64,000 nt of DNA, taken from Deltaproteobacteria bacterium (GTDB lineage Bacteria; Myxococcota; Myxococcia; Myxococcales; 40CM-4-68-19). Under the pieces are notes generated by a model. The model made no database searches. It was not told where the DNA came from and worked only from the letters and a program-made list of their open reading frames with translations. The DNA is taken from assembly GCA_005879315.1 (NCBI GenBank), contig VBLC01000048.1:17919-81918 (forward strand), given 5' to 3'. Every line of letters begins with the position of its first letter. The first letter of the stretch is position 1. This document shows, in pieces, positions 4,876-55,821 of this stretch. Position numbers and translations under genes: made by a program.

Positions 4876-4917
4876 TCTTTCCCGATGCTACGGTTCCGCA
4901 GGCGCGCGGTCAAAGCG

Positions 4918-6534: not shown

Positions 6535-6593
6535 AAAAGTTCAGGGATCGTATTGAGTTGCACAGCGGGTGTCAACGAACTTAGCCTGCCCTC

Positions 6594-24164: not shown

Positions 24165-25916
24165 TTACCGCGCAGGGCCGATCCGCGCCACGGCCGCGCG
24201 CGGGAAGGCGGGCCCCGGATGCGCGAGCAGGTATCCCTGCACGAGCGGCACCCCGAGCTCCTGCACCACGCGCAGCTCCTCCTCGGTCTCGATCCCTTCG
24301 CAGATCGCCCGCATCCCTTCGCCGCGGCAATACTCGAGGATGTGCTTGATCAGCCGCGCGGCGCGACCGCCCTGCGAGATCCCGCGCACCATCGCCATGT
24401 CCAGCTTGACGAAGTCGGGCTCGAGCAGCGCCAGGCTGTTCAGGCTGGAGTACCCGGAGCCGAGATCGTCGACGGCGATGCGGAATCCGGCGGCCCGCAG
24501 CGCGGCCACCCGGTCTCGCGCGCGCTCGAAGTTGCTCACCTCGGCTGCCTCGGTCAATTCCAGCACGATGCGCTTCGTCCAGGGTTGGAGCGCCGCCTCC
24601 TTCTCGATGCCGTCTGCGACGAGGAACTCGAAGGGATGGACGTTGAGAAAGAGCAGCTTCTCCGCGGGGAGCTGGCCGATGGCGGCCACCTGGATCTCGC
24701 GCAGCACGCGACCGAGCGCCGGCACTTGTCCGCCCCGCTCGGCCGCGCCGAGCGCATCGACGATCGAGCCGAAGCCCGGATCGGTCGGCCGCGCCAGCGC
24801 CTCCCACGCCAGCTCGCTGCGCGCGGCGAGATCGACGATCGGTTGGTACACGGCGCGAAAAGCGCGCTCGCGAATGGAGCGATCGAGCGCGCCCAGCTTG
24901 TCCGCCTCGTGGCGCACCTGCGCCGCATCGAGGCGGCCGCCCTGCGACAGCTCCCGGGACCAGCAGATGAGACGGTTGCGCCCGGCCTGCTTGGCGGCCT
25001 CCATGGAGATGAAGGCGGCGCCGATGAGCGCCTCGGCCTCCTGGGCGTGCTCGGGAAAGGAGGCAACGCCGATCGAGACGGTGATGCGCGGCAGGCCCGT
25101 GCCAAGCTCGGCTCCTTCCAGCATCCGGCGCAGGGTCTCTGCGCGCGTGGCGGCACCGGTCCGGTCGGTCTCGGGCAAGAGCAGCGCGAAAGTGTCGCCG
25201 CCGAAGCGCGCCATCACGTCGCCGCCACCCAGATACGCGGGCAGGTCGCTGACGCGGCAGTTGCGGTGAAGAAAGCCGCCCAAGGATCGCAGGAGCGCAT
25301 CGCCGCCGGAGAAGCCGAGGCTCTTGTTGATGTCGCGGAAGCGATCGACGCTGGCGAGGACCAGCGCGCAGGAGGCGCCGTGGCGCCGGCCGCGGGCGAT
25401 CTCCTTGCGCACGGACTCCTGGAAGGAGGCGTGGTTGTCGAGCCCGGTCAAGGGATCTCGCGTCGCCAGGCCCTCGAGAATGGCGTTCTTGGTCTGCAGC
25501 TCGGAGAGGAGGCTCCGGTTGGCGCGGCGCAGCTTGAGGCCCTCCACGGCGCGCTGCAGGCGCGCGCGGAAGTCAGCCAGGTCGAAGGGCTTGACCACGT
25601 AATCGGCCACGCCGGCCTGCAGCGCGTCCACCGCCGACGAGAGCGTGGCGTAGCCGCTCATCACGACGATCTGCACGTCGAGGTTGCGCGCGCCGAACTC
25701 GCGGATCAGCGAGAGGCCGCTGCCGTCCGGCAGGTTCTTGTCCACCACCAGGAAGTCGTATCCGGCGGCCGCCATCTGCTGGCGCGCCTCGGCGAGCGAC
25801 TGCGCCGGACCGGTCGCGAAGCCCATCCCCTCCAGCACCTCGACCACGACCGAGCGGACGACTTCTTCGTCGTCGACGACCAGCGCGCGCAGTCCCTCTG
25901 CTACCGACTCTGGCAT
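24165..25916 (-). CDS. Response regulator with REC, GGDEF-like and EAL domains
   Basis: VVDDEEVVR and VDKNLP (REC), FGGDTF (degenerate GGDEF), AWEALARP/ELTE/DDLGSGYSSL/KLD/EGIE/QGYLL (EAL). Confidence 0.9.
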   Translation of the reverse strand: MPESVAEGLRALVVDDEEVVRSVVVEVLEGMGFATGPAQSLAEARQQMAAAGYDFLVVDKNLPDGSGLSLIREFGARNLDVQIVVMSGYATLSSAVDALQAGVADYVVKPFDLADFRARLQRAVEGLKLRRANRSLLSELQTKNAILEGLATRDPLTGLDNHASFQESVRKEIARGRRHGASCALVLASVDRFRDINKSLGFSGGDALLRSLGGFLHRNCRVSDLPAYLGGGDVMARFGGDTFALLLPETDRTGAATRAETLRRMLEGAELGTGLPRITVSIGVASFPEHAQEAEALIGAAFISMEAAKQAGRNRLICWSRELSQGGRLDAAQVRHEADKLGALDRSIRERAFRAVYQPIVDLAARSELAWEALARPTDPGFGSIVDALGAAERGGQVPALGRVLREIQVAAIGQLPAEKLLFLNVHPFEFLVADGIEKEAALQPWTKRIVLELTEAAEVSNFERARDRVAALRAAGFRIAVDDLGSGYSSLNSLALLEPDFVKLDMAMVRGISQGGRAARLIKHILEYCRGEGMRAICEGIETEEELRVVQELGVPLVQGYLLAHPGPAFPRAAVARIGPAR

Positions 25917-25995: not shown

Positions 25996-27807
25996 ATGCG
26001 CATCGGTGCCCGCGCACTTCTCGTGATGGTGCCGGTCGCCGTGCTTCCGCTCATCGGCGCGGGATGGATCGCCTTCAAGGTCTCGCGCCGCGCGCTCGAG
26101 GATCGCACCCGCGCCGCGCAGGTGGCGGCGGCGCGCTCTCTCGCCGAGCGCGTCTCCGCCGAGGTCTCCGCCAGCCTTCACGCGGCCGGCCTCGCCGGCA
26201 ACGCGATGGATTTCGCCGAGCTCAGCGCCGGCGAGCGCGTCGGAGCGTTGCGGCTGGTGTTCCGTCAAATCGAAGGCGCCGCGGCGGTGGCGCTGCTCTC
26301 GCCTGACGGCGCGCAGGTGGCGTCGCCGGTCTATCTCGATTCGCGCGCGCAGGATCCTTCTCTCGCGGACCGCGCGATCCTCGGCGAGCAGGACATCGAC
26401 GAGTTCGCCCGCAGCATCCCCCTGCGCGCGGCGGTGCAGGTCGGAGCTGCAGTGGGTCCGGCGCACGCCTCCCGTTCCGGAGAGCCCCGCGTGGCGGTTG
26501 CGGTTCGCGCACGCGGTGGACTGGTGCTCGCGGTCGAGTTCAGCCTGGCGAGGCTGATTCCGGTCGTCTCCGAGTCGCGCCTGGGCGTGCGCGGCAGCGC
26601 AGTCGTGGTCGATCGCACGGGCCGCGTGGTGCTCGGCTCGATCGCGCCGCGCTCGTCGCTGTCGGGCTCGCCGCTGGTGCAGGCGGCGCTGGCCGGGAGT
26701 CTCGGCGCGCTCTCCTTCATCGGACCCGATGGAGTCGAGCGGCTGGGCGCCACGGCCGAGGCGCCCGACCTGGGCTGGATCATCGCCATCGACGAGCCGG
26801 CCGAGGACGCGCTCGCCGAGTCACGGGTGCTGGCCCGGCGAACGGCGGCCGCAGTAGCGATCGCGCTGGTCGCGGGCGTGGCTCTCGCGCTTCTGGCGAG
26901 CAGGGCCATCGTGCGGCCCATCCGCGCGCTGCACCAGGGCGCCGCGGCGCTGGCTGGCGGAGAGCTGGGGCACCGCGTGGTCGCCGCCGACCGCGGCGAT
27001 GAGCTCGGCGATCTGGCGCGCGCCTTCAACACCATGGCCGCGGAGATCGAGCGCTGGAACCGCGAGCTGGCGCAGCGGGTCGAGGAGAAGACACGCGAGG
27101 CGCGCGAGGCGCAGGACCTTCTCTTGCGCGCGCAGAAGCTCGCCGCGGTGGGACAGCTGGGCGCCGGCGTGGCGCACGAGGTGAACAATCCGCTCGCCGG
27201 CCTCCTCGGGCAGACGCAGCTCTTGCTCTTGCAGGAGCCGGCCGACTCGGCGCGGCGCAAGAAGCTGGCGAGCATCGAGACGCAAGCGCTGCGCATCCGC
27301 GAGATCGTCCAGCGGCTGCAGCAAGGCGCGGAGGGCGCGGAGCAGACCGCTGTCGACCTGCGCGCGCTGCTCGACGATTCCCTGGCCCGCAACGGCGACG
27401 CGCTCGCCTCGGCCAAGGTGCAGATCGTCCGCGAGTACGGGCCGCCCTTGCGCATCACCGGCGACCCGCGGCGGCTGACCGAGGCCTTTGCCGAGCTGGT
27501 GACGAACGCGCGCCGGGCCATGCCGGCGGGCGGCCAGCTCACGGTCGGCTATCGCTGCATCGATGGGCAGCTCGCAGCCATCCGCTTTGCCGATACCGGA
27601 GAGGGCATTTCTCCCAGCGTCCGGCCGCGCATCTTCGAACCCTTCTTCACCACCAAAAAAGACTGGAACGCCAAGGGGTTGGGCCTCACGATGGTCCACC
27701 AGGTCTGCGAGGAGCACAACGGCCGGGTGACGGTGGAGAGCGCGCCCGGCAAAGGCGCAACCTTCACGGTGGTGCTGCCGGTGCTGCAAGAAAGGGCGCT
27801 AGCATGA
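25996..27807 (+). CDS. Membrane sensor histidine kinase with HAMP
   Basis: TM segments, HAMP, GVAHEVNNPLAGLLGQ H-box, ATPase domain ADTGEGISPSVRPRIFEPFFTTK...GLGLTMVHQVCEEHNG. Confidence 0.92.
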   Translation: MRIGARALLVMVPVAVLPLIGAGWIAFKVSRRALEDRTRAAQVAAARSLAERVSAEVSASLHAAGLAGNAMDFAELSAGERVGALRLVFRQIEGAAAVALLSPDGAQVASPVYLDSRAQDPSLADRAILGEQDIDEFARSIPLRAAVQVGAAVGPAHASRSGEPRVAVAVRARGGLVLAVEFSLARLIPVVSESRLGVRGSAVVVDRTGRVVLGSIAPRSSLSGSPLVQAALAGSLGALSFIGPDGVERLGATAEAPDLGWIIAIDEPAEDALAESRVLARRTAAAVAIALVAGVALALLASRAIVRPIRALHQGAAALAGGELGHRVVAADRGDELGDLARAFNTMAAEIERWNRELAQRVEEKTREAREAQDLLLRAQKLAAVGQLGAGVAHEVNNPLAGLLGQTQLLLLQEPADSARRKKLASIETQALRIREIVQRLQQGAEGAEQTAVDLRALLDDSLARNGDALASAKVQIVREYGPPLRITGDPRRLTEAFAELVTNARRAMPAGGQLTVGYRCIDGQLAAIRFADTGEGISPSVRPRIFEPFFTTKKDWNAKGLGLTMVHQVCEEHNGRVTVESAPGKGATFTVVLPVLQERALA

Positions 27808-28736
27808 GCGGCGCCCCCAAGCCGGCTGTAGAAAAAAAAATAATTATTTTTTTTCCCGCCGCGGCGGGGGTGCTCCTCGCCCTCGGTGGCTGCGGATTTT
27901 GCGGGAAAAAACCGGCTGCGGCGCCCCCTCCGCCTGCTCCGGTTGCCGAAGCGCCCGCGCCTGCGCCTGCGCCGGTCGCATTGAACCTTTCCAAGGCGCA
28001 GGGCGATGTGCAGGTCCGGCACGCGCAGGGGCCGTGGGTGCCGGTGCAGCCGCCCTTCCCTCTCGGCCTCGACGACTCGGTCCGAACCGCCCTCGGAGGC
28101 ACGGCCACATTGCAGGTCGGCCGCGACGGATCGATCGAGGTTCGCGAACGCACGGAAGTGTCGGTGCGGCAGCTGCTCGCCGACCGCGCCCGGTTCCGGT
28201 TGGAACGCGGCCGCATCGGGGCCACGCCAGGGCACACGGCACTGACCGTCGAGTCGTCCGGCAGCAGCGCGGTGGCCGAGGCCAGCACCGGCTCGTTCGC
28301 CGTCTTCAACGACGGCAAGGGCCTGGTCGCCGTCGTCGCCGAGGCGGGCGAGGTGAAATTGACCTCGGGCGGCGGCGACACGCTCCTCGCTGCCGGCCAG
28401 GGGGCGCGCATCGTCGGCGACGCGGCGCCCGTGCGCGAGGAGGTGCCGCGCTCGGTGTTGCTCAAGGTGGCCTGGCCGGAGCAGAAGGAAACGCGCGACA
28501 CGTCGATCAAGCTGAGCGGCGAAGCCGATCCGGGCGCGCTCGTCTCGGTCAACGGCCGGCAGCTGCAGGTTGCTGACGACGGCCGCTTCGAGGCCGACGT
28601 GCCGCTCATCCCCGGACCCAACCGCTTGTCGGTCAGCAGCACCGACCGTTTCGGCCGCACCGCCGACGCGGAAAACACGCTGCGCGTCGATCGACGGCCG
28701 CCGCCGGTCAAGGCGCAGCACGAGGGCTGGGAGTGA
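27804..28736 (+). CDS. FecR-like lipoprotein with C-terminal Ig-like domain
   Basis: Lipobox LGGC; FecR-type region VQVRHAQGPWVPVQPPFPLGLDDSVRTALGGTATLQVGRDGSIEVRERTEV; ATGA overlap with HK. Confidence 0.75.
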   Translation: MSGAPKPAVEKKIIIFFPAAAGVLLALGGCGFCGKKPAAAPPPPAPVAEAPAPAPAPVALNLSKAQGDVQVRHAQGPWVPVQPPFPLGLDDSVRTALGGTATLQVGRDGSIEVRERTEVSVRQLLADRARFRLERGRIGATPGHTALTVESSGSSAVAEASTGSFAVFNDGKGLVAVVAEAGEVKLTSGGGDTLLAAGQGARIVGDAAPVREEVPRSVLLKVAWPEQKETRDTSIKLSGEADPGALVSVNGRQLQVADDGRFEADVPLIPGPNRLSVSSTDRFGRTADAENTLRVDRRPPPVKAQHEGWE

Positions 28737-30853
28737 TCGCCGCTGCCCTGGCAGCGGTGCTCGCAACGGGGCCGCTGGGAGTCTCAGCGCCGGCCGCCGT
28801 GCGGCGCGACGGCCGCACCGCCTCGACGGTGAAGTTGATGGGAGGGCCCGAGCTCCTCGAGGGAGAGGATCCCACGCTGCCCGACCTCGGATCGATCTCC
28901 TGCCGGGGCGCCTCCGTCGTGGCAGCGAACGGGACCCTCCCGCCGCGCGTTCTTCCGCCAGCTGGATCGGAGCCGGGCGAGATCTCGTGCGTGGCGCGGC
29001 GCCGCGGCGAAGAGAGCGCCTTCTCCCTGCGCCTCGAGGCTCCCGGCGCCGGGCTCTATGCCTCGCTCTTGCAGAATCGCCCCGCCGAGGTCGCGCTGCA
29101 CCCCTTCCGCATTCCGCAAGCGAAGCTGCTCTCGCTGCACGCCGCAGCCAGCGCCGGCCGCCTGATCGAGTCGCCTGACGGCACGCTGCGCATCGCGCTG
29201 CCGCCGGGGCGGTCTCCCCGTGCGCTGGCGGTGGCTCTGCTCGATGGCGACGGCGAGGGAGCCGCCTTCTTGCCGCTGCCCGGCCACACGCGATTGCGTC
29301 TCGAGTCGAAGCGCCGCTCGGTCCTCTCGGTGCGCGTGGCCGGCGCGCTCTTCGGGCCGGTGCGCGCGCCCAAAGGCAAGGCGACCCTGCCGGTGTTCGT
29401 GCCGCCCGGCACGCAGAGCGGCGTCGTTCGAGCCGTCGATCGGATTGGCAACGTCCGCGAGGTCGCCATCGATCTCGAGACGCCCTCGCTGCCGCGCATC
29501 GCTGCGGTCGCTTCGGGGAACCAGGTCGTGGCGCGCGGCGAGCTGCGCCTGGCGTTCGCTCTCGCCGCGGCGGACGGCGCTCCCGCCGAGAACGCGCAAG
29601 TGCGCGCTGCCGCCAGCCGAGGTTCCGTCGAGGCGCCGGCCGCTCGCGGAGCCGGGCTCTGGACCGCGCGCTATCGGGCGCCGGCATCGCCGGGCAGCGA
29701 TCTCGTCACCATCGATGTCAAAGGAGATCCTTCCGCCGGCACGGTCAAGCTGCGGTTCGAGGTGGTGGCCGGGCCGCCTGCCGAGATCTCGCTCGATCTC
29801 CCCTCCTCCGCGCCGCGCGCCGGCGACGAGCTGGTCGTGCACGCGGGTGTCCGCGATGCGGCCGGCAACGCCCTCGCCGGAGTTCCGTTGGAAGCGTCGC
29901 TGGCCGGAGCGCCGGCGCGCATCTCCTGGCGGGGCAAGACAGTCGACGTGCGCGGCCTCGTCCCGGAACGGCTCCCCGCAGGTGGTGCGGTCGAGATCTC
30001 TCTGCGCTCCGGCGATGCCGCAAGAGCACAGGCGCGCATCGAAGCGCGGCCGGGCGAGGCATCGACGGCCGAGCTGCGCGCCGACCCCACCGAGCGCACG
30101 GCGCTTCTGCGCGTGCTGGTGCGCGACCGCTTCGGAAATCTTCTCGGCGCGTCGGGCTTCGCGCTCGCCGCCAGCGGGGCCAGCGTCGGACCGCTGCGCG
30201 CTGCGGCCGCCGGCGCTGCCGAGGCCGATCTCGACGCTGCGCCCCGCGTCCGCGCCGCAGAGGCATCGGTGATCGCGGGCGGCCGGGTGCTCGCGCGCAC
30301 GAGCATCGCTTTTGATCCGCCGCCCGAAGCCTGGCTCCTCTCCGCGCGCGGACAGGGCGGAGGCATGTCGAGCGGCGCGATGCGCGCGCCGCGGCTCGGC
30401 GCCGCGCTCGGCATCCGCCGCCGCTTCGGCTCCTTCGAGGGGGGCGCTCTCCTCGGCCTCGACGCCCTTTCCTACCGCGACACCATCGTCGTCGACCTGG
30501 CTGGCGCCCAGCATCCGCTCTCGCGGCATCTGTTTGCGCTCACCGTGCCCTTGCTCCTGCGCGCCCGATTGCCGATCGCGCGGCGGTTCGGAGCGTCGCT
30601 CGAGGCAGGCCCGGCAGCAGTCTTCGCCTGGACCTCCGCCTCGAGCGAAGTGAGCGGCAACGAGCGCGTCGTCAGCGTCCGGCCCGGCTTTCGCGCCGGC
30701 GCCTCGCTCGATTTTTCCCTCGGCCGCGGCCGCATCGGTCTGGGCGCGAGCGTCGGCAGCGCGCGGCTGACGAATGGCGCCGTCGTCGGCCAGATCGAGG
30801 GAACGTCGGTCTGGCTGGGCTATGAAGCTTGGTGGCTCGACATCGGTCCCTGA
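28733..30853 (+). CDS. Secreted Ig-like/outer-membrane beta-barrel protein
   Basis: GTG start (GTGA overlap); Ig-like repeats then C-terminal alternating beta strands GAALGIRRRFGSFEGGALLGLDAL... Confidence 0.65.
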   Translation: MIAAALAAVLATGPLGVSAPAAVRRDGRTASTVKLMGGPELLEGEDPTLPDLGSISCRGASVVAANGTLPPRVLPPAGSEPGEISCVARRRGEESAFSLRLEAPGAGLYASLLQNRPAEVALHPFRIPQAKLLSLHAAASAGRLIESPDGTLRIALPPGRSPRALAVALLDGDGEGAAFLPLPGHTRLRLESKRRSVLSVRVAGALFGPVRAPKGKATLPVFVPPGTQSGVVRAVDRIGNVREVAIDLETPSLPRIAAVASGNQVVARGELRLAFALAAADGAPAENAQVRAAASRGSVEAPAARGAGLWTARYRAPASPGSDLVTIDVKGDPSAGTVKLRFEVVAGPPAEISLDLPSSAPRAGDELVVHAGVRDAAGNALAGVPLEASLAGAPARISWRGKTVDVRGLVPERLPAGGAVEISLRSGDAARAQARIEARPGEASTAELRADPTERTALLRVLVRDRFGNLLGASGFALAASGASVGPLRAAAAGAAEADLDAAPRVRAAEASVIAGGRVLARTSIAFDPPPEAWLLSARGQGGGMSSGAMRAPRLGAALGIRRRFGSFEGGALLGLDALSYRDTIVVDLAGAQHPLSRHLFALTVPLLLRARLPIARRFGASLEAGPAAVFAWTSASSEVSGNERVVSVRPGFRAGASLDFSLGRGRIGLGASVGSARLTNGAVVGQIEGTSVWLGYEAWWLDIGP

Positions 30854-30861
30854 GGAGAGGC

Positions 30862-31515
30862 ATGGCTGAGACGAAAGACCCCGCACTGCTGCTCGCCGAG
30901 CTGGCCCACGAGCTGCGCCAGCCGCTGACCGGCATCCGCGCCAACGCCGAGCTGCTGCTCGACTCGCATGGCGGCGATGCGACGGTGCGTTCCCGCGCCG
31001 CGGCCATCGTGCAGCAGGTGCAGCGCATCCAGCTCCTGCTGGATCGCGCGCGACGGCCGGGGCCGCCTCCGCCGGGCACGCGCGGCGATCTCAACCAGGC
31101 GGTGGAGGCGGCGTGGTCGCTGCTCGAGGCCGATGCCGCGCGGCAAGGAGCGACGCTCGAGCGAAAGCTCGGCAAGGTGCCCCAGGTCGCTTGCGATCAA
31201 ATCGCGCTCGAGCAGACCTTTGGCAACCTTCTGCGCAACGCGATGGAGGCTCTCGGCAGCAAGGGCGGACGCATCCGCGTCACCACCGCGACCACGGGCG
31301 GAGGCGCCGAGGCCATCGTCGAGGACGAAGGAGCGGGCATCCCTGCCGAGCTGCGCGCGCGCCTCTTCAGCCCCTTCGTCACCGGGCGCGCGTCGGGCAC
31401 CGGCCTCGGCCTCTACATCTGCCGATCCCTCGCCGAGGAGGCCGGGGGAGAGCTCGATCTCCTCGAGGGCGGCCCCGGCGCGCGCTTCCGCCTGCGCCTC
31501 CCTCTCGCCCGCTGA
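30862..31515 (+). CDS. Soluble histidine kinase (HisKA-HATPase only)
   Basis: LAELAHELRQPLTGIRANAELLL; FGNLLRNAMEAL; VEDEGAGIPAELRARLFSPFVTGRASGTGLGLYICRSLAEEAGG; no TM. Confidence 0.88.
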   Translation: MAETKDPALLLAELAHELRQPLTGIRANAELLLDSHGGDATVRSRAAAIVQQVQRIQLLLDRARRPGPPPPGTRGDLNQAVEAAWSLLEADAARQGATLERKLGKVPQVACDQIALEQTFGNLLRNAMEALGSKGGRIRVTTATTGGGAEAIVEDEGAGIPAELRARLFSPFVTGRASGTGLGLYICRSLAEEAGGELDLLEGGPGARFRLRLPLAR

Positions 31516-31602: not shown

Positions 31603-34600
31603 TTGGACTCGAAATTGGTCACGCCCGGGCGCATTCAGCGTGCGCGGCGCACGTGGAGTGCGCTCGCTGCGCTCGCTCTTTCCAGCTGCACTTGCGCCCA
31701 GCGCGGCTTGCCGGACCAGCTCTCGCTCGATTCCGTCGAGCCCGCGATCGCAGTCGCGGGTGTGGTCACGCCCTTGCTCTTGCATGGCAGCGGATTCCGG
31801 GCGCCGGTCGTCACCAATCTCGGCGCGAAGAGCGCCAGTGGAGATCCTCTTTTCGTGCGCGTCGGCTCGATCGATCTGGGCAATGCCGTGCTCCACGCCG
31901 ACGGCAGCATCGAGGCAACCCTGCCCGACACGCTCCTGCCCGGCGTGTATGAGGTGTCGATCGCGCTCGGCGCGCGGCAGGCGGCACGCAGCGCGGCCCT
32001 CGAGGTGGTCGCGCCCCTCGAGGTGGCCCTGGCGGCCCCGACCGATCTGGCGAGCGGCGAAGAGCAGTCGTTCTCGATCGCGCTGACCTCGCGCGCGCCT
32101 TCCGTGCAGGTGGCCATCGATTCGCTGAGCGTGACGCCCGGCGGAACGGTCGCGGTGAGCGGGCTGCTCCTGCCCTCCTTCCTCGGAGTCGATCCGATCA
32201 CGGCCTTCGGCAAGATCAGCTCGCTGCGACCTCCGGCTGCGGTCGACACAGCCCTGGCAGTGTCCGTGCGCTGGAGCCTGGGCACTGTCAGCGGCACGGT
32301 GCAGGTCTCCTCCACGCTGCACGCCTTCGCGCCTCCCCTGATGGCCGCCGGCATCGAGGCGCCCGCCGAGATCGAGCTGGGCGCTCAGCAGGCCATGACC
32401 GCGCAGCTGCTGGCGCCTGCCTGGGTCGATCTGGGGCACGTCACCGTCAACGTCAGCGCCGGCGGAGGCGCGGCGCTGGCCGCGAATGTCTCTCTTTCGG
32501 GCGCCGTGCTGCCGGCTGGCCTGGCCCTGCCCCTGCTCGGCCTGGTGCAAGGAATTGCGGCGGGGCCTGGATGGCTGCAGCTGGACGCAACCGCTCTCGC
32601 CGCGCGCGGCGACGCGCCAGCGGCGCTCTCGGTGCGGCGCGCGCTGACGGTGCGAAGCGGGCCTGCTCCGGCGCTCGCCTCTCTGGCATTGCCGGGAGTG
32701 GTGGAAGTGGGCCTGCCGGTCGCGGTCACGGTCCAGGCGCGCAACGACGGCGACGTCGACCTCTCGGGAGCGCAGCTCAGCGTCTCGGCCACGGGAGGAA
32801 GCGTCACGCCTTCGCTGGTGCAGCTCGCCATCGCGGCGGGGACCAGCTCGACGCAGACGCTGACGGTCGTTCCGCAGACCGCCGGAACCGCGGTGCAGCT
32901 GACCGTCAATCTCTCCGGCGCGAGCGCGCTCTCCGGCCGCACCTTCGCGGCGCAGTCCGCGTCGGCGTCGTCGGGTGCGGCGCGGCGGCCGCCGGCACTC
33001 TCGATCACCGGTACACCGGCGCAATCGCGCACGTCGGTGGGGCAGAGGATTTCCCTCGCCGTGCAGATCTCCAACGCCGGCGACGTGGACGTTCCCTCGG
33101 CGGTTCTCTCCATCTCGGCCGGCGGCTCGGGCTCCGTGATCGACAGCTCGGGCAATGCCGCGGCCGCGGTGCAGCTGCCGCCGGCCTCGGTTCCGGCGGG
33201 CGGTTCGGTCACGCTCTCCGCGGTCGTGCTGGGAGTTACGGCGGCGCCCGCGACCTTTGCGCTTTCGGTGGCGGGCACCGATCCGGTGTCGAGCGCAAAC
33301 GTGACGGCGTCGGGGGCGGCATCGTTCGATGTTCAGGCCGGCCCCTCCCTCTCGGTGACCCTGTCCGGGCCAGCGCGGCTGGTGACCGGCCAGTCGGCGA
33401 CGCTGGATGCGATGGTGAGCAACAGCGGCGGGGCCGACGCGGTCTCGGTCGCTCCCGCCGCGCAGGTCTCGGGGCCCATCGGCGCAGGGTCGCCGACGCC
33501 GTCCTCGCTGGCCCGGCTCACCGCGGGGACCTCGACGCATTTCTCCATCCCCGTGTTCGCTGGCTCGACCTCGGGAGCCGCATCGATCTCCGTCGTCGCC
33601 TCGGGACAAGACGGCAACGGCGCGGGGCCGGTGTCGGCGTCGGGCACCTTCAATATTGCCGTGCAGGATCCGCCGCGCCTCACCGCCTCGTTCCCGACCG
33701 CCCTGCCCGCCACCGCGACGGAAAATCAGGTCCTGCCGTCGATCATGCTCCACCTCGTCGCTGCCGGCGCGCCTTCGGCTGACGCGAGGCTGGCGGCGCT
33801 CCCTACGCTTTCTCTCTCGGGAAACGGGACCGCGGTGGCCCAAGCGCCCTGCCCTACGTTGCCCTGCGCACTCGCTGCGGGGTCGACGATGGACATCCCC
33901 GTGCAGATCACCGCAGGCACCGCCGGCAACCTCCAGGTCACCGCCTCCTTTGCGGGAGCGCTGGTCGATGCCGACCAGGGATCGGCCGTCGCGGTCTCCG
34001 CCGTCTCCACTACCGTCGTGCAAGTGCAGACCGCCGGCGCGCTCGCCGTCCAGGCGCAGGTCCCTCAGCTGACCGAAGGGTTCAGCGCGACGATCACGGT
34101 CGTCGTCTCCAACACGGGAGGGGCAGAGGTCAGCGCGCTCGCCCTTTCCGCGCTCGACGTCACCGACGGCGCCGGCTTATCTGTTGCGCACAGCACCGGA
34201 ACCCTGCCGGTCACGGCGCTGGCTGGCGGGGCGAACGCTTCCTTCACCTTCACGGTCACGCCCCAGACGGGCGCCGGGACGTTGAACGTCCATGTGCGCA
34301 TCGATGGCACGGAGACCAACACCGGGGCGGTGCGCACCGGCCAGACGACCTCGTCGACGCCGGTGCTGACTCCCGGCGGTCTGGTGGTCGATCTGCGCGG
34401 AGTGCCGGCGACGGCGTCGGTGGGACAGGCGATCAGCCTGCAAGTCCCGGTGACGAACACCGGGCAGACCACCGTCACCGGAGTGACGGCTTCGCTCACC
34501 CAGCGCGGCGCCGTCGGGGATGGAACGGTCACCATCACCGGCCCCGCCCAGGCGGCGCAGGACCTGGTCGCGGGTGCATCGGCGACGTTCACCTTCCAGA

Positions 34601-37600
34601 TCACGGTGACAGCGGCGGGGCCGGTGCATCTGACCGCGAGCGCATCGGGCACAGTCGGCGGCGGGCCGGCGACCGTCAAGCCTGCCTCGGCGGACATGAC
34701 GGCGCAGGCGCCGGCCCAGCTGACCGCCACCTTCACCACCGACCGGACGGCCGTGAGCGTCGGTCAGACGTTGCGCCTGACGCTCACCGTGCAGAACACC
34801 GGCGGCGCGGATGCCAACAACGTCACGGCCGCGACACCCACCGTCGCCTCTGGCGCGACGGCCACCACCGCGGCGATCACCGCCATTGCCGCAGGTCCCG
34901 TGACCCTGCTGCACGCCGGGGCGAGCGCATCGTTCAGCTGGACCACCTCGGGGACCTCGGCAGGCCAGGTCTCCTTCGTTTCGAGTGCGCAAGGCACGGA
35001 CGCGAACGACAGCAGCAAGACTCCCTCGACGGGCAGCGTGACCAGCGCCACCGTGCAGGTACAGAACCCAGGACAGCTCACGCTGTCGGCGGCGGCCAGC
35101 CCTGCGCGCGTGTCGGCCGGACTGCAGCGGGCCACGCTCACGCTGACCGCGGCGAATCCCGGCGGCGCGGACGTGACCCTCAACGCGCTGACGGCGCCAG
35201 TGGCGCTGACCTCGGGAAGCGCAGCGGTGACGACTGCGACGCCGCCGGCCTCGGCGGCTGGTGTGGTGCTCCATTCCGGGAATACGCGCGATTTCGTCTG
35301 GACCTTCGACGCCTCGGGCAGCGGCACGGTCTCGTGGCAAGCATCCGCGAGCGCCACCGAATCGAACACGGGCGGGACGCTCTCCCCGGCGCCGGCGAAC
35401 ACGTCGTCGATCGTCATCGAGGCGCCAGCAGGGCTCTCGCTCTCGCTCGTGGCATCGCCCGCGCGCGTCTCGGCCGGACTGCAGCGCGTGCAGCTCACCT
35501 TGACCGCCAAGAATCCCGGCGGCGCAGGCCTGCGGCTCGACGCCCTGCCGGCGCCGACCGTGGCAGTCACCGGAACGGCTGCGGCCACGGTGGCGACCTC
35601 GCCTCCGCCTGCCGGAGGCACGGTGCTGGCAGGAGGGTCGACGCAAACCTTCCAGTGGACGTACGACGTCTCGGGCAGCGGCATGCTGACCTTCTCCGCC
35701 GGAGCGAGCGGCACCGATGCCGACAGCGGCACAGCCGTTCAACCTGCCGCCGTCACGGCGCCCACGGTCCAGGTGCAAGCCCCCGGCGCGCTCTCGGCGA
35801 CGGCTTCGGCAATGCCGGCGCGCGTGTCGGCCGGGCTCCAGCAGGTGTCGCTCGTGCTCACGTTGCAGAACAGCGGCGGCGCGGGCGTGAAGCTCGACGT
35901 GCTGCCGGCGCCCACGGTGACCTCGACGGGAACCGCCGCGGCCTCGGTCTCTTCGTCACCCCCTTCGCCGGCCGGCGACATCCTCGCCGGCGGCGCGACG
36001 CGGACTTTCACCTGGGTCTGGAACGTCTCGGGCAGCGGCACGCTCACCTTCTCCGTCTCGGCCTCGGGCACGGACGTCAACGCGAGCACGGCCGTGGGCC
36101 CCACTTCCGCCGCGAGCCAGGCCGTCACCGTGCAGGCGCCGGGAGCGCTCTCCGTCTCCGTCTCCGTCTCGCCCGCCAGCGCGTCGGCGGGACAGAACAC
36201 CGTCTCCTTCACGCTGCTCGCGCGCAACACCGGCGGGGCCGACGTGAAGCTCGACGCCCTGCCCTCACCGACGGTCGCTTCCACCGGCACGGCGGCCGCG
36301 AGCGTCTCGAGCGCGCCTGCCTCGGCCGCCGGGACCGTGCTTGCCGGCGGCGCGAGCATGAGCTTCGTCTGGAACTACATCGTGTCGGGCAGCGGCACGC
36401 TCACCTTCACTGGCTCGGCCTCAGGAGTGGAGGCGAACACGCAGGGCGCGCTCGCTCCCGCGCCGGTCACTTCCTCGCCGGTCTCCGTGCAGCAGCCGGG
36501 CGCGCTCTCGCTCTCGGCCAGCGCCAGCCCGAGCCAGGTCTCGGCCGGCCTGCAGCAGGTGCAGCTCGTGCTTTCGGCGCAGAACACTGGCCAGGCTGAT
36601 GTCGTGCTCGACGCGCTGCCGCTCCCGACAGTGACGGCGATCGGCACCGCCTCGGCGAACGTCGCATCTTCCCCGCCGGCGACCGCAGGCACCGTCATCC
36701 CGGGTGGCGTGACGAAGACCTTCACCTGGACCTGGAACACGGGCGGCTCCGGCACGATCAGCTTTGCCGCTTCGGCCAGCGGACATGACGGCAACAGCAA
36801 CAACGCGATCGCGCCGCCGGGGGCGACGGCCGGTCCGGTCACGGTGCAGACCTCGGGAGCGCTCTCGCTCTCCATCGCCGCCAGCCCGACGCAGGTCTCG
36901 GCAGGGCTGCAGCAAGTCTCGCTGACGCTCTCGGCGACCAACACCGGCGGCGCCTCGGTCATCCTCGATGCGCTGGCGCAGCCTACCGTGGCAGTCACCG
37001 GAAGCGCGCTGGCCACGCTCGTCTCCTCGCCGGCCTCGCCCGCCGGCACTGCGCTGACCGGCGGCACGACACAGTCGTTCGTCTGGACCTACTCCGTTTC
37101 CGGCACTGGAACGCTCGCCTTCACCGCCAAAGCGAGCGGCAAGGAAGCGAACACCGGCAATGCCATCGCGCCCACGCCGGTCGTCTCGCCCACCGTGACG
37201 GTGCAGGCGCCGGCTGCGCTCGCGCTCTCGGCCTCGGCGACGCCGGCGCAGGTTTCGGCCGGGCTGCAGAAGGTCTCGCTGGCCTTGACGGCGAGCAATT
37301 CCGGCGGCGCCTCGGTGAAACTGGACGCGCTCGCCTCGCCGATCGTCACGACGACCGGAACGGCGGCAGCTTCGCTCGCGTCTTCTCCTGCGTCGCCTGC
37401 CGGGACATTGCTCGCGGGCGGAGCGTCGACGACCTTTACCTGGCAGTACGACGTCTCGGGCAGCGGGACGCTTTCCTTCTCCGCGAAGGCGAGCGGCGTC
37501 GACGCCAACAGCAGCACGGTGCTGGCGCCTTCCCCCGCGACGGCCGGACCGGCCACTGTCCAGCAGCCCGCGCAGCTGACGCTCTCGGCGTCGCTCAATC

Positions 37601-40113
37601 TCACGATTCTCTCCGCCGGCTTGCAGCAGCTGCAGCTCACCTTGCAGGCGAACAACCCTGGCGAGGCCGGGGTGGTGCTCAACGCGCTGCCAGCCCCTGC
37701 CATCACGCCGACCGGGACCGCCGGCGCAGCCGTTGCCTCCAGTCCTCCCTCCGCTGCTGGAACCACTCTCGCGGGTGGCGCGACGAAATCGTTCGTCTGG
37801 ACGTACTCGGTTTCGGGGAGCGGCTCGCTCTCGATCTCCGCCTCGGCTTCCGGCACCGATGCGAATGCCGGAAACACCCTTGCCCCCGCCGCCGCGAACG
37901 CCGGAACGGCCACCGTGCAGAAGCCGGCCAGCCTCACCGTCGCCTCGGTCACCGCGTCGCCTTCGCTGGCCCATCTCGGCGACGCCATCGACGTCGCGGT
38001 AGCCGTGCGCAACGATGGTGAAGCGCCCGCCATGCAGGTGGCGCTCTCCGGCACCTCCGCAAGCGCAACCGCGACGCAGGGCGCCGCGCCCGCGGCGGTC
38101 GCGCAGCTCGCCGGCGGGGCCAGCACCGTCTTCCACATTCCCTACACGGCGCAGTCGGAAGGAACTTTCACCGCGACCAGCGGCGCGACAGGCACCGAGG
38201 GCAACGCTGGCACGTCGCTCACCGCCGCCGCCGTGACTTCTGCCTCGATCAACATCACCGCCATCCAGGTGGCCATCACCTTCCCCGACAACCGGGCGAC
38301 GCTGCAGGGCGGCGGCTCGCTCAGCGCCGTCGCCAGCGCCTGGAACACCGCGGGGGCGAACATCACACAGCTCTCGCTCTCCGCGACCGGGCCGGCGAGC
38401 GTCGCGGCGCCTTCGAGCGTCTCGGGATCGCGGCCGACCGTCGGCGCGACCTTCTCCGTCTCTGCGAACTCGGGCGCCGCGGCCGGCAGCACCATCACGC
38501 TGGTGGCGAGCGCGACCGATGGGGCCGGAACGCAGGTCTCCTCGACACCGGTGACGGTGACCATCGGCCCGGCCAAGGCGCTGGCGCTCTCCTGCCGGCC
38601 GCAGCCGGTCTCCATCGCCCAGGGACAATCGAGCGAGGCGCGGCTGCAGGCGCAGATGAGCGATGGAACCCTCCAGGACGCGACGCTGTCGGCGACCTGG
38701 TCTTCGTCGTCGACGGCGGTGGCCACCGTCGCGACAGGCGTCGTGAAAGGCGCTGCGGCGGGAGACGCGACGGTCACCGGCACTTTCGGCGGGCTCTCCG
38801 CGAGCTGCCCCGTGCATGTCGCAGCGGCGCCGCCCGTCTACGCCATGATCCCCGCCGATCCGTTCCTGCTCGGCATCACTGGGCAGCTGCATCTGCGCTT
38901 CGTCCAGACGGGCCTGACAGGACGGCCGAACAGCGACGTCACCGGCGTCGTCAACTGGAGCACGAGCAATGCCTCGGTCGCGACCGTGAGCAGCGGACTG
39001 GTCACGGGTGCGGCCGCCGGCACCGCGACCATCACCGCCTGCACCGCGACCAACAACTGCGCAAGCTCGCTCGCCGTCGTGGGAAGCTCGCTCGACATCC
39101 CCGGCACGCTCACCTATCAGCGCTACGCCATCGGCAATTCGCAGACCTTCACCTCGCTGCGGCTGCGATCCGGCATCGTGACTTATCTTACCGATGTGGG
39201 CTACCCGCTCACGCTCAAGGTGACCTCCTTCCGGCTCGACTCGGGAGCCTCGCTGGTCGGAGACGGCAGCAGCGCACCCGGCGCCGTCTCCAACGGCAGC
39301 ATCACGACGACCGGCGAAGGCGGCGATGGTGCGCCCGCCGCGGGCGGCGGCGGAGGCGGCGGCGGCAGTGGCAGCAACTTCTGCACCAACGCCAACTGCG
39401 GAGGCCGCGGCGCGACCCCTGGCGACACTCCCAGCTGCGGTTTGAACAGCACCTGCGGCGGCGGAAACGGCCAGGCCGCAGCCGGCGGTCAGGGCGCTCC
39501 ACAAGGCGGGCTTCTTGGTCTTCTCGGGCCGCCAATTGGGGAGGCCGGCGGAGGCGGCGGCGACGGCGGCAAGGGCGGCCGCGGAGGGGACGTGAGCGCC
39601 GGCAGCTTCGCCAGCAACGGCGGTGGCCTCGGCGTGCTCGACGGCAAGACCGGCGGCGACGGCGGCGGTGGCGGCAACGCGGGCAGCGGCAGCGGACCCG
39701 CCGGCGGAGGCGGCGGCGGTGGAGGCGCCATCCTCTTCAGCGGCAATGCCTCCGCCTCGATCCGCATCGACGGCTTGATCTCTCTCGAGGGCGGCGGCGG
39801 CGGCATGATCCGCTCCGCCAACGGCGGCCCGGGCGGCGCCGGGTCCGGCGGATCCTTCTTCATCGACGCGAGCTCCGGCCAGGTGACGGGGACCGGCACG
39901 ATCTCGGTGCGCGGCGGGCCCGGCGGCAGCGGAGCATCGACGGGGACCTGCGGCGGAGGCGGCGGTGGAGGCGGCGGGATGATCCAGATCACCGCTCCTG
40001 TAGCGGGACCGAGTCTGGCCACGCTGGTCGAAGGCGGCCCCGGCGGCGGGGCTTGCGGCGGAGGCGGCCAGGCAGGTGAGGCCGGCGGCACAGGACAGCT
40101 GAAACGGCCCTGA
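31603..40113 (+). CDS. Giant (2836 aa) lipoprotein: CARDB/DUF11-like tandem repeats, Big_2-like modules and Gly-rich C-terminus
   Basis: TTG start; lipobox-like LALSSC; tandem VSAGLQ...TLTxxNxGGAxVxLDALPxPTV units; WSTSNASVATVSSGLVTGAAAGTATITA (Big_2-like). Confidence 0.85.
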   Translation: MDSKLVTPGRIQRARRTWSALAALALSSCTCAQRGLPDQLSLDSVEPAIAVAGVVTPLLLHGSGFRAPVVTNLGAKSASGDPLFVRVGSIDLGNAVLHADGSIEATLPDTLLPGVYEVSIALGARQAARSAALEVVAPLEVALAAPTDLASGEEQSFSIALTSRAPSVQVAIDSLSVTPGGTVAVSGLLLPSFLGVDPITAFGKISSLRPPAAVDTALAVSVRWSLGTVSGTVQVSSTLHAFAPPLMAAGIEAPAEIELGAQQAMTAQLLAPAWVDLGHVTVNVSAGGGAALAANVSLSGAVLPAGLALPLLGLVQGIAAGPGWLQLDATALAARGDAPAALSVRRALTVRSGPAPALASLALPGVVEVGLPVAVTVQARNDGDVDLSGAQLSVSATGGSVTPSLVQLAIAAGTSSTQTLTVVPQTAGTAVQLTVNLSGASALSGRTFAAQSASASSGAARRPPALSITGTPAQSRTSVGQRISLAVQISNAGDVDVPSAVLSISAGGSGSVIDSSGNAAAAVQLPPASVPAGGSVTLSAVVLGVTAAPATFALSVAGTDPVSSANVTASGAASFDVQAGPSLSVTLSGPARLVTGQSATLDAMVSNSGGADAVSVAPAAQVSGPIGAGSPTPSSLARLTAGTSTHFSIPVFAGSTSGAASISVVASGQDGNGAGPVSASGTFNIAVQDPPRLTASFPTALPATATENQVLPSIMLHLVAAGAPSADARLAALPTLSLSGNGTAVAQAPCPTLPCALAAGSTMDIPVQITAGTAGNLQVTASFAGALVDADQGSAVAVSAVSTTVVQVQTAGALAVQAQVPQLTEGFSATITVVVSNTGGAEVSALALSALDVTDGAGLSVAHSTGTLPVTALAGGANASFTFTVTPQTGAGTLNVHVRIDGTETNTGAVRTGQTTSSTPVLTPGGLVVDLRGVPATASVGQAISLQVPVTNTGQTTVTGVTASLTQRGAVGDGTVTITGPAQAAQDLVAGASATFTFQITVTAAGPVHLTASASGTVGGGPATVKPASADMTAQAPAQLTATFTTDRTAVSVGQTLRLTLTVQNTGGADANNVTAATPTVASGATATTAAITAIAAGPVTLLHAGASASFSWTTSGTSAGQVSFVSSAQGTDANDSSKTPSTGSVTSATVQVQNPGQLTLSAAASPARVSAGLQRATLTLTAANPGGADVTLNALTAPVALTSGSAAVTTATPPASAAGVVLHSGNTRDFVWTFDASGSGTVSWQASASATESNTGGTLSPAPANTSSIVIEAPAGLSLSLVASPARVSAGLQRVQLTLTAKNPGGAGLRLDALPAPTVAVTGTAAATVATSPPPAGGTVLAGGSTQTFQWTYDVSGSGMLTFSAGASGTDADSGTAVQPAAVTAPTVQVQAPGALSATASAMPARVSAGLQQVSLVLTLQNSGGAGVKLDVLPAPTVTSTGTAAASVSSSPPSPAGDILAGGATRTFTWVWNVSGSGTLTFSVSASGTDVNASTAVGPTSAASQAVTVQAPGALSVSVSVSPASASAGQNTVSFTLLARNTGGADVKLDALPSPTVASTGTAAASVSSAPASAAGTVLAGGASMSFVWNYIVSGSGTLTFTGSASGVEANTQGALAPAPVTSSPVSVQQPGALSLSASASPSQVSAGLQQVQLVLSAQNTGQADVVLDALPLPTVTAIGTASANVASSPPATAGTVIPGGVTKTFTWTWNTGGSGTISFAASASGHDGNSNNAIAPPGATAGPVTVQTSGALSLSIAASPTQVSAGLQQVSLTLSATNTGGASVILDALAQPTVAVTGSALATLVSSPASPAGTALTGGTTQSFVWTYSVSGTGTLAFTAKASGKEANTGNAIAPTPVVSPTVTVQAPAALALSASATPAQVSAGLQKVSLALTASNSGGASVKLDALASPIVTTTGTAAASLASSPASPAGTLLAGGASTTFTWQYDVSGSGTLSFSAKASGVDANSSTVLAPSPATAGPATVQQPAQLTLSASLNLTILSAGLQQLQLTLQANNPGEAGVVLNALPAPAITPTGTAGAAVASSPPSAAGTTLAGGATKSFVWTYSVSGSGSLSISASASGTDANAGNTLAPAAANAGTATVQKPASLTVASVTASPSLAHLGDAIDVAVAVRNDGEAPAMQVALSGTSASATATQGAAPAAVAQLAGGASTVFHIPYTAQSEGTFTATSGATGTEGNAGTSLTAAAVTSASINITAIQVAITFPDNRATLQGGGSLSAVASAWNTAGANITQLSLSATGPASVAAPSSVSGSRPTVGATFSVSANSGAAAGSTITLVASATDGAGTQVSSTPVTVTIGPAKALALSCRPQPVSIAQGQSSEARLQAQMSDGTLQDATLSATWSSSSTAVATVATGVVKGAAAGDATVTGTFGGLSASCPVHVAAAPPVYAMIPADPFLLGITGQLHLRFVQTGLTGRPNSDVTGVVNWSTSNASVATVSSGLVTGAAAGTATITACTATNNCASSLAVVGSSLDIPGTLTYQRYAIGNSQTFTSLRLRSGIVTYLTDVGYPLTLKVTSFRLDSGASLVGDGSSAPGAVSNGSITTTGEGGDGAPAAGGGGGGGGSGSNFCTNANCGGRGATPGDTPSCGLNSTCGGGNGQAAAGGQGAPQGGLLGLLGPPIGEAGGGGGDGGKGGRGGDVSAGSFASNGGGLGVLDGKTGGDGGGGGNAGSGSGPAGGGGGGGGAILFSGNASASIRIDGLISLEGGGGGMIRSANGGPGGAGSGGSFFIDASSGQVTGTGTISVRGGPGGSGASTGTCGGGGGGGGGMIQITAPVAGPSLATLVEGGPGGGACGGGGQAGEAGGTGQLKRP
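34753..37965 (+). repeat. Nine in-frame tandem units, exact 357-bp (119-codon) period
   Basis: Equivalent anchor codons at 34753, 35110, 35467, 35824, 36181, 36538, 36895, 37252, 37609 (all 357 apart); a diverged next anchor at 37966. Confidence 0.9.
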
Positions 40114-45738: not shown

Positions 45739-45859
45739 AGAGTGGCGCCTCCGCATCGAAGACATCCTGGCGGCGGTCGAGCGCGTGCAGCGCACCACCA
45801 TCAGCACCCCGCGAAGGACCCGGCTCGCCTCGCTCTTCAGGCGGGCACTGGAAGCGTGA
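45728..45859 (+). pseudogene. HepT N-terminal remnant
   Basis: GTG start; VPPREWRLRIEDILAAVERVQR then divergent short tail; overlaps mntA stop. Confidence 0.5.
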
Positions 45860-47540
45860 ACCAGAAGCGCGATCCTTTTCCGGGTTCGCTCGCGACGCCC
45901 ATCTCACCGCCGTGCGCGCGCACGATCTCGCGGGAGATGTACAAACCGAGCCCGATGCCCTCGCCCTTGGTGCCCGGCACGCGGAAGAACTTCTCGAAGA
46001 TGCGCTCGCGATACTCGGGCGCGATGCCCTGACCCTGGTCGGCCACCTCGAAGCGCACCTGCTTGCCGTTCGCCTGCGCGCGCACCGTCACGTCGGTGCC
46101 GCGCGCGCTGTGGCGGACGGCGTTACTGATCAGGTTGTCGAAGACCAACCCCACGCGCTCCGGGTCTGCCAGCACCGGCAGCACCGGCTCTGTGATCTCC
46201 ACCCGCAGCTTGACGCCCGCCTCCGCCGCGCCGTCCTCACGCACCGCCACCGCCCCCTCGACCAGCGCCTTGGAAGAGATGGGCGCCGGCTCGACCTCGA
46301 CCTTGCCCGCCTGGATGCGCGAGAGGTCGAGCAGGTCGTCGACGATGCCCTGCAGCCGCTCGCAGTCCTCGCGCGCGGCGAAGAGCATCTCCGCCTGCGC
46401 GTCGTTGATGCGGCCCACCGTGCCCTCGACGAGAATGTGGATGGCCATGCGCAGCGAGGTGAGCGGCGTGCGGAACTCGTGCGCGACAGTGGCGACCAGG
46501 TCGTTCTTCAGCTCGTCGAAGCGCAACAGGCGCGTCACGTCCTGCAGCACCACGGTCGCGCCGCTGACCGCGCCCTGCTCGGAATAGAGCGGCGCGCCGC
46601 GCGGCAAGAGGCGCCTGTCGCGCAGCGGTACCGCCTCCTCCAGCCCGCGTGGCACGTACGCGCCCTTCCCGCCCACCACGTGCAGCCGCACCCTCTCGAT
46701 GGCCTCGCGCACCTGCGGCTCGGCGCGCCCCAGCGGATCGGGTCCGGCCTGGATCTGCAGGCTGGTCTCCGCGCTCTGGTTGACGTTGAGCACGCGCCCG
46801 TCCACTCCCAGCACCAGCACCGGATCGGGCAGGCTGTCGATGGCCGCCTGCGACGCCTGCTGCGCCTGGAGCAACTCGCCCAGCGAGCTATTGCGGTACT
46901 CGCGCAGCTTGTCGGCCATGGTGTCGAACTCGCGGCCCAGGCGCGCGATCTCGTCCTCGCCCGCGATGCGCGCGCGGGTGTCGAGATCGCCCTCGCCGAT
47001 GCGGCGCACCGCCATGGAGAGCCGCGAGAGCGGCCGCAGTGCGCGGTTGGTCAACGCCGCCGAGGAGACGAGCCCGAACAAGAGCCCGATCACGGTGGCG
47101 AAGACCAACAGCGACTGGTTGCTCTCGGCTGTGCGCTGCGCCTGCTCGCTTTTCTGCACCATCGCGTCCTGGTTGATCTCGAGGATGCGCTGCGCGGCGT
47201 CGCGCACCTGCGCGTAGCGCGGCTGGCCCTGCTGGTACGCGGTCCACTCCTGCCGCAGCCGCTCGGTCAGCTCCTTCTCGCCCGGCTCGGTGAGGTTATC
47301 CTCCTGCGCTTTCAGCTCGGCCTCGAACTGCGCGGCGGCCTCGGGCGAGCGCTTGCGATCCATCTGCTCCAGCGCGTCCTTCATCCGCTGCGCCGCCAGT
47401 ACGCTGCGGTAATTGTCCTTGAGGATGCGCTGCGAGCTGCGGCCCAGCTCGCTCAGCGTGCGCAGGGCCACTACTCCGAGGAGCGCGAGCACCAGCGCCA
47501 GCGGCGCCTGGGCGAGGAGCAGCTTGCTGCGCAGGCTCAC
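45837..47540 (-). CDS. Membrane histidine kinase (HAMP, PAS, HisKA, HATPase)
   Basis: GTG start; LLFGLVSSAALTNRALRPL HAMP; VATVAHEFRTPLTSLRMAI H-box; GIGLGLYISREIVRAHGG; GTGA overlap with kdpD-like gene. Confidence 0.9.
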   Translation of the reverse strand: MSLRSKLLLAQAPLALVLALLGVVALRTLSELGRSSQRILKDNYRSVLAAQRMKDALEQMDRKRSPEAAAQFEAELKAQEDNLTEPGEKELTERLRQEWTAYQQGQPRYAQVRDAAQRILEINQDAMVQKSEQAQRTAESNQSLLVFATVIGLLFGLVSSAALTNRALRPLSRLSMAVRRIGEGDLDTRARIAGEDEIARLGREFDTMADKLREYRNSSLGELLQAQQASQAAIDSLPDPVLVLGVDGRVLNVNQSAETSLQIQAGPDPLGRAEPQVREAIERVRLHVVGGKGAYVPRGLEEAVPLRDRRLLPRGAPLYSEQGAVSGATVVLQDVTRLLRFDELKNDLVATVAHEFRTPLTSLRMAIHILVEGTVGRINDAQAEMLFAAREDCERLQGIVDDLLDLSRIQAGKVEVEPAPISSKALVEGAVAVREDGAAEAGVKLRVEITEPVLPVLADPERVGLVFDNLISNAVRHSARGTDVTVRAQANGKQVRFEVADQGQGIAPEYRERIFEKFFRVPGTKGEGIGLGLYISREIVRAHGGEMGVASEPGKGSRFWFTLPVPA

Positions 47541-48766
47541 TGCTCCTCCTCGAAGGAGACGATGTGCAGGTCGAGATCGGTGGCCTCGCGCAAGAGCCGG
47601 GTCAAAACCGACCCGAAGAGCACCTGCCTCCACCACGGCTGCAGCGATCGCCCGAGGATCAGCCGCGACACCCCGTGCGTGCGGGCAAAGTCGAGGATGG
47701 CCTGCGCCGGATCGTCGGACTTGAGCCGCACCACCTCCGCCCCCAGCTCGCGGGCCTTCTCGATGTTGGCGAGCAGGTGCCGCTGCGCCTCGGAGTCGAT
47801 CAGCTCGGGCGACTCGCGCGGCGTCTCAACGTAGACCACGTACCAGTCGGTGTTGAGCCGCCCCGCCATCCGCGAGCCGCGCTCGAGCAGCGTCTTGGCG
47901 CGCGGCGGGTTGGAGGCGAGGCACACCATCACCCGCCCCGCCGGCCTCGACTGCGGCTCGGTCGGGCGGGCAGCGCGGTCGAGGCTCTCGGCCACCTCGC
48001 GGAGCGCCAGCTCGCGCAGCGTGGCCAGGTTCTGGTCCTTGAAGAAGTTCTCCAGCGCCCAGGGAATCTTGTCCGCCGCGTAGATCTTTCCCTGTTTCAA
48101 TCTTTCCTGGAGATCCTCGACGGCCAGGTCCAGGTTCACCACCTGATCCGCTTGCTTGAGAAAACCGTCGGGCACCGTCTCGCGCACCGTCACGCCGGTG
48201 GCGCGCTCGATCAGTCCGTTCAAGGATTCCAGGTGCTGCACGTTGAGCGCGCCGATGATGTTGATGCCCGCGTCGAGCAGCGCCAGCACGTCCTGCCAGC
48301 GCTTGCGATTCTGCGAGCCCGGCGCGTTGGTGTGGGCGAACTCGTCCACCACCGCGATCTGCGGCTTGCGCGCGACAACCGCCTGGAGATCCATCTCCTC
48401 CACCTGAACGCCGCGGTACTCGATGCGCTTGCGCGGCACCACTTCCAGTCCCTCGATCAGCGCGATGGTATCGGCGCGGCCGTGCGGCTCGACGAAGCCC
48501 ACCACCACGTCCACGCCGCGGCGCCGCAGATCGTGCGCCTCCTGCAGCATGCGGTAAGTCTTGCCCACTCCCGCCGCGAAGCCGACGTAGAGCTTGAGCC
48601 GGCCGCGGCGGGCGCGCTCGACCAGCTCGAGGAAGTCCTCGGGTCGGCGCGCGGTCTCAGCCGTCTTCGTACTTCCTCCGCTTGCGCCAGAGGGTGCTGG
48701 AATCGAGTCCGAGGATGCGCGCCGCCTCCTCTTGCGTCTTGCTCCGCGCCAGCACGCGCAGGACAT
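47537..48766 (-). CDS. kdpD: KdpD sensor-domain protein (P-loop KdpD domain + Usp domain, no kinase); start uncertain
   Basis: RGRLKLYVGFAAGVGKTYRMLQEAHDLRRRGVDVVVGFVEPHGR; VVDEFAHTNAPGSQNRKRWQDV; C-term Usp SRLILGRSLQPWWRQVLFGSV. No ATG/GTG/TTG close to the upstream gene's stop. Confidence 0.85.
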   Translation of the reverse strand: MSCACWRGARRKRRRRASSDSIPAPSGASGGSTKTAETARRPEDFLELVERARRGRLKLYVGFAAGVGKTYRMLQEAHDLRRRGVDVVVGFVEPHGRADTIALIEGLEVVPRKRIEYRGVQVEEMDLQAVVARKPQIAVVDEFAHTNAPGSQNRKRWQDVLALLDAGINIIGALNVQHLESLNGLIERATGVTVRETVPDGFLKQADQVVNLDLAVEDLQERLKQGKIYAADKIPWALENFFKDQNLATLRELALREVAESLDRAARPTEPQSRPAGRVMVCLASNPPRAKTLLERGSRMAGRLNTDWYVVYVETPRESPELIDSEAQRHLLANIEKARELGAEVVRLKSDDPAQAILDFARTHGVSRLILGRSLQPWWRQVLFGSVLTRLLREATDLDLHIVSFEEEQ

Positions 48767-55744: not shown

Positions 55745-55821
55745 TGGCGGGCGCTACTGGATTCGAACCAGTGGCCTTCGGCTTCGGAGACCGACGCTCT
55801 ATCCAACTGAGCTAAGCGCCC
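55745..55821 (-). tRNA. tRNA-Arg(CCG), CCA encoded
   Basis: Reverse complement GGGCGCTTAGCTCAGTTGGATAGAGCGTCGGTCTCCGAAGCCGAAGGCCACTGGTTCGAATCCAGTAGCGCCCGCCA folds as cloverleaf; anticodon loop CTCCGAA gives CCG. Confidence 0.95.

Follow-up and report, generated by a model that had tools for sequence, protein, structure and literature searches.

A giant lipoprotein encoded in a conserved myxobacterial operon contains an old tandem array of eight CARDB-type Ig-like units

Results

An array of eight 119-residue units lies in the middle of a giant lipoprotein

We analysed a window of 64,000 nucleotides from a Deltaproteobacteria bacterium of the order Myxococcales (GenBank assembly GCA_005879315.1, contig VBLC01000048.1) and found that a giant lipoprotein encoded there contains eight consecutive Ig-like units of exactly 119 residues each. 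As domain amplifications go, the array is ordinary, and it is not a recent expansion. We think it fairly probable that it forms the middle of an outer-membrane-anchored fibre, which consists of old, amplified CARDB-type units, is coupled to the kinases of its operon and serves as an extended adhesin or sensor stalk. The observations behind this proposal are the repeats themselves, their register, their orthology among relatives, a difference in unit number and the conservation of the operon. The gene is an open frame with a TTG start (an alternative TTG lies at 31615) and has orthologues at loci L024, L025 and L026. Its parts are as follows.

31603..40113, plus strand: giant CARDB/Ig-repeat lipoprotein gene, open frame of 2836 aa, TTG start
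31603..31689, plus strand: predicted lipoprotein signal peptide, read from the translation (Arg-rich n-region, hydrophobic stretch, lipobox LSSC)
32983..34722, plus strand: older upstream CARDB-type domains (unit profile and Pfam CARDB; spacing 113-117 residues)
34723..35079, plus strand: u0, a diverged CARDB domain with the first anchor (16-24% identity, gaps needed)
35080..37935, plus strand: eight-unit array u1-u8, Ig-like, 119 residues (357 bp) each (pairwise identity, profile, offset identity, AlphaFold2)
37936..38262, plus strand: diverged CARDB domain after the array, holding the tenth anchor (weak profile match, CARDB match)
38599..38787, plus strand: Big_2 bacterial Ig-like domain, the better of two stretches (Pfam PF02368, E 7.7e-8)
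39163..40110, plus strand: Gly-rich C-terminal region (kept in relatives G002 and G006)

The sequence-only reading of this DNA had described nine tandem repeats in perfect register. The register is as described: the anchors from 34753 to 37609 are all in frame at intervals of exactly 357 bp, the diverged tenth anchor at 37966 keeps the same phase, and the interval to the upstream anchor at 34414 is 339 bp. Inside the array (residues 1160-2111), protein identity at an offset of 119 is 0.565, whereas 2000 shuffles averaged 0.11 and never exceeded 0.154. The count of nine has to be replaced by eight. Units u1-u8 form one family with pairwise identities of 41-63%, and 25 of their 28 pairs align without gaps; the other three, all involving the last unit, take 2 gap columns (BLOSUM62). 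An older CARDB domain holds the first anchor (34753); it lies outside this homogeneous array, is only 16-24% identical to the other units and requires 2-10 gap columns against them. In the multiple alignment u0 carries compensating one-residue indels (SVG-Q, ANDSS), and its spacing stays at 119.

A profile built from u1-u8 gave exactly eight strong matches in consecutive 119-residue steps (155-176 bits). These scores are high by construction, because the profile was made from the same units, and the informative part of the result is the spacing together with the weak scores of the flanks. There, u0 reached 48 bits, four more older domains upstream scored at least 7 bits at spacings of 113-117 residues, and one diverged domain was matched downstream, the post-array CARDB domain, which is 9-17% identical to the array units. 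Pfam assigned CARDB (PF07705) to six stretches of the giant lipoprotein, with a whole-protein E of 8.4e-24 that is above the curated cut-off, and Big_2 to two; searches of the protein with Pfam and NCBIfam gave no adhesive-type match. In a genome-wide CARDB search the matches sit in the domains flanking the array and not individually in u1-u8. A second CARDB gene, an 838-aa frame, lies on the same contig just beyond the window (G000:C115:85216-85473, minus strand).

The two ends of the protein differ in kind from its middle. At the N-terminus, the lipobox LSSC was recognised by eye in the translation at residues 26-29, and the signal peptides of the orthologues finish with LGGC or WNGC. The Gly-rich C-terminal region (residues 2441-2836) is 66-72% identical in G002 and G006, has no match in Pfam or among PDB sequences, and gave an unusable single-sequence structure model (pLDDT 38). 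It may resemble the polyglycine tip domains of phage adhesins.

Structure prediction had been suggested for two or three units, and we modelled u2-u4 with AlphaFold2 from an alignment of the window and L023 triplets. The model is all beta (pLDDT 95.7, pTM 0.77), and each array unit is predicted with confidence to be an Ig-like beta sandwich. Foldseek placed the model near integrin alpha legs, ciliary central-apparatus proteins, PrgB Ig domains and antigen I/II C-terminal domains. These PDB neighbours are about 10-15% identical in sequence, and no PDB sequence was matched when the unit profile served as the query.

The amplification is older than the species that share it

A search of 40 genomes, namely that of the window and those of relatives as distant as the same order, found array orthologues in the same genus, where all relatives are draft genomes and G002 is 61% complete. 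Deltaproteobacteria bacterium 13_1_40CM_4_68_19 (L023/G004, MNFJ01000099.1) has eight 119-residue units in the same order as the window, and the two arrays are 73% identical and gap-free over 952 residues. G006 has eight units with three joints out of frame. In G002 there are three units; they fall with u1, u2 and u8 in the tree, and each contains a one-residue indel (-1, -1, +1). Outside the genus but in the same taxonomic family, G007 and G011 carry related arrays of 17 and 14 units, in which spacings of 107-115 residues are mixed inside one protein. In the per-unit phylogeny that the earlier reading had called for, positional orthologues group together for every unit, with local support of 0.88-1.00. 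Because unit i pairs with unit i across species, the amplification is older than those species and the units have since evolved separately. G002_u2 clusters with its u2 counterparts, and u3-u7 fall outside that group (support 0.95); a loss of u3-u7 in G002 is therefore favoured over a later gain elsewhere, and the difference in unit number fits a single such loss.

These data bear on two rival explanations of the array. Recent amplification or ongoing homogenisation by gene conversion or unequal crossover, as in Periscope Proteins, would keep units alike, and a unit number of three in G002 against eight in the others is what such turnover might produce. However, DNA identity between units is only 54-66%, Tandem Repeats Finder did not report the array, and the G002 difference is explicable by one loss. 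Moreover, units group with their positional orthologues and not with their same-genome neighbours, so the unit tree rejects recent duplication and gene conversion as a general explanation, and we regard it as very improbable here. An artefact of assembling a repetitive region is harder still to credit. The window genome is a 125-contig draft, and the G006 copy has frame-breaking joints inside its array, but the units are too different to have been collapsed or duplicated by assembly, and the occurrence of the same eight units in the same order in L023/G004 largely refutes this explanation. In the G006 array (L025, positions 4237-6745, G006:C369), the three out-of-frame joints lose about 127, 106 and 115 bp, and two of the three have reading-frame overlaps of about 10-13 nt; it looks like a misassembly, although it may instead be a decayed gene.

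Unit length is under moderate rather than strict constraint

The absence of indels had been taken to suggest a strong length constraint or amplification with purifying selection on length. Purifying selection is borne out by comparison with G004, in which dN/dS is 0.21 in the array and 0.29-0.34 in the rest of the gene, rough estimates with dS near 1. Gap events in the same comparison number 0 in 952 aligned residues of the array and 10 in 1327 outside it (Fisher p = 0.007, with sites taken as independent and a single species pair). This result lends moderate support to length constraint, and together with the 25 gap-free unit pairs it favours the stricter proposal that a fixed stacking geometry removes any indel. 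That proposal is nevertheless partly refuted by G002, where each retained unit has gained or lost a residue and indels are no less frequent in the array than upstream, and the mixed unit lengths of G007 and G011 also argue against it. We consider strict length selection unlikely. The freedom from indels thus holds for the window genome and the eight units of G004 and fails in G002, and unit length is conserved within the clade except in G002 but not across the taxonomic family. Given the G002 indels and the 107-115-residue units of other genera, the exact length reflects common descent plus moderate constraint and not an invariant stacking rule. The array offers a clean example of domains that were amplified long ago and show positional orthology, in which constant length can be told apart from homogenisation.

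The giant gene closes a conserved operon with two histidine kinases

The giant lipoprotein gene is the last of a compact same-strand operon, in which it follows, in order, genes for a dCache histidine kinase, a FecR-like lipoprotein, an Ig/barrel-like protein and a short histidine kinase. Two of the joints are 4-bp overlaps.

24165..25916, minus strand: response regulator (receiver)-GGDEF-EAL gene, divergent from the operon (Pfam; start inferred near 25916)
25996..27807, plus strand: dCache-HAMP-HisKA-HATPase membrane histidine kinase, 603 aa (Pfam; dCache below curated cut-off; start inferred)
27804..28736, plus strand: FecR-like/Glucodextran_B lipoprotein, 310 aa (Pfam; ATGA overlap with the kinase stop)
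28733..30853, plus strand: Invasin_D3/Ig protein with barrel-like C-terminal part, 706 aa (Pfam PF09134; GTGA overlap)
30862..31515, plus strand: short histidine kinase (HisKA, HATPase), 217 aa (Pfam)

The FecR match of the 310-aa protein is weak (E 0.0014, below the curated cut-off); this lipoprotein is conserved beside CARDB genes. The putative barrel of the Invasin_D3/Ig protein was recognised by eye, and we saw no membrane segment in the short kinase. Using tblastn, we found that ten other genomes from this order (L024, L026, L027, L028, L031, L033, L035, L036, L037 and L042) have the whole set or most of it next to a CARDB gene; the cluster is reduced at L029, L032 and L034, and CARDB stands alone at L038-L040. 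There are also FecR-like and Ig proteins that have no giant gene with them. Copies of the receiver-GGDEF-EAL gene that are 71-75% identical adjoin the operon at L024, L026 and L041.

Several related loci were encountered along the way. L041 (G006:C456) is a paralogous whole cluster (kinase, FecR, Ig/barrel-like protein, kinase and the N-terminal part of a giant protein) that runs off the contig end. At L026 (positions 5764-7282, G002:C132) a full copy of the FecR-like gene is followed by a partial tandem duplicate. The window's own genome has a second FecR/Ig cluster elsewhere (G000:C85:96412-97922), in which the match to the Ig gene contains one TGA. Within the window, a PAS/HAMP histidine kinase adjoins a gene for a KdpD sensor domain plus Usp at 45837-48766 (minus strand), probably as part of a Kdp-type potassium system, and the only Rfam match at the gathering threshold is a tRNA gene (55748-55821, minus strand).

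Discussion

The earlier suggestion of a stalk of stacked domains agrees with the lipobox, with some 14 CARDB-like Ig domains in tandem and with the confident Ig-sandwich model. We propose that, before the species of the genus separated, one 119-residue CARDB-type Ig domain gave rise by tandem amplification to eight units, which then diverged under purifying selection, with homogenisation not detected. The founder's unit length may have been kept because most of the 119 residues would be strands and short interdomain joints. The eight beta-sandwich units would extend the giant lipoprotein outward from the cell surface, its presumed location, and the conserved Gly-rich region would be the distal end, a candidate tip of the fibre. 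Fibre length is not strictly fixed, because G002 has three units and not eight. The membrane sensor kinase, FecR-like lipoprotein, Ig/barrel-like protein and short kinase may assemble or monitor this putative fibre and report on it, possibly to the divergent receiver-GGDEF-EAL protein and hence to cyclic di-GMP. The stalk may act in adhesion or in sensing. It tells against the proposal that we recognised no known type of adhesive or ligand-binding domain in the protein.

The giant lipoprotein could instead be a periplasmic scaffold or an envelope-sensing component that works with the FecR-like protein and the kinases. That two histidine kinases and a FecR-like lipoprotein constantly accompany it is compatible with such a role, and a lipid anchor alone does not tell on which side of the outer membrane a protein lies. 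However, a chain of 2836 residues bearing some 14 Ig domains or more would seem long for the periplasm, and proteins with tandem stalk domains are usually surface filaments (PMC8286594). We consider the periplasmic placement unlikely. If the protein is a surface fibre as we propose, a tentative extension, which we hold to be less likely than not, is that the cluster constitutes an undescribed myxobacterial surface-sensing system with the fibre as probe and cyclic di-GMP or gene expression as output. In searches of the open-licence literature on CARDB tandem repeats, or on FecR, histidine kinase and Ig-like combinations, in myxobacteria, we found no description of the cluster. The interest of the locus is modest and rests on the conserved operon. 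Many genomes of the order carry this cluster, which ties giant Ig lipoproteins to two-component signalling and is a concrete candidate for a role in contact sensing or in adhesion by soil myxobacteria.

Several known kinds of protein resemble the array or the protein that contains it. One is the CARDB family (PF07705): the neighbouring domains match it above the cut-off, the unit profile matches those domains too, and the unit has an Ig-like fold according to the AlphaFold2 model and its PDB neighbours. The family model has 101 positions, whereas the array units are longer at 119 residues. PrgB (8beg) and integrin alpha legs are likewise tandem Ig-like sandwiches, but identities of 9-12% and query TM-scores of 0.25-0.31 over three domains indicate that they have only the single-domain fold in common with the array. 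Fibrillar adhesins combine a stalk with an adhesive domain (PMC8286594, PMC9210967). The giant lipoprotein is similarly long and multidomain, and its tandem stalk domains comprise the eight 119-residue units with further CARDB and Big_2 domains, but it differs in having no recognised adhesive domain; the main text of those two surveys mentions neither CARDB nor Myxococcota. Periscope Proteins have highly similar DNA repeats and vary in length from strain to strain (PMC8201768, PMC9704523). As in those proteins, the number of tandem domains differs among relatives and is expected to alter projection length. In contrast to them, the array has repeats of 54-66% DNA identity with positional orthology, its units are old and individually diverged, and the difference in unit number lies between species.
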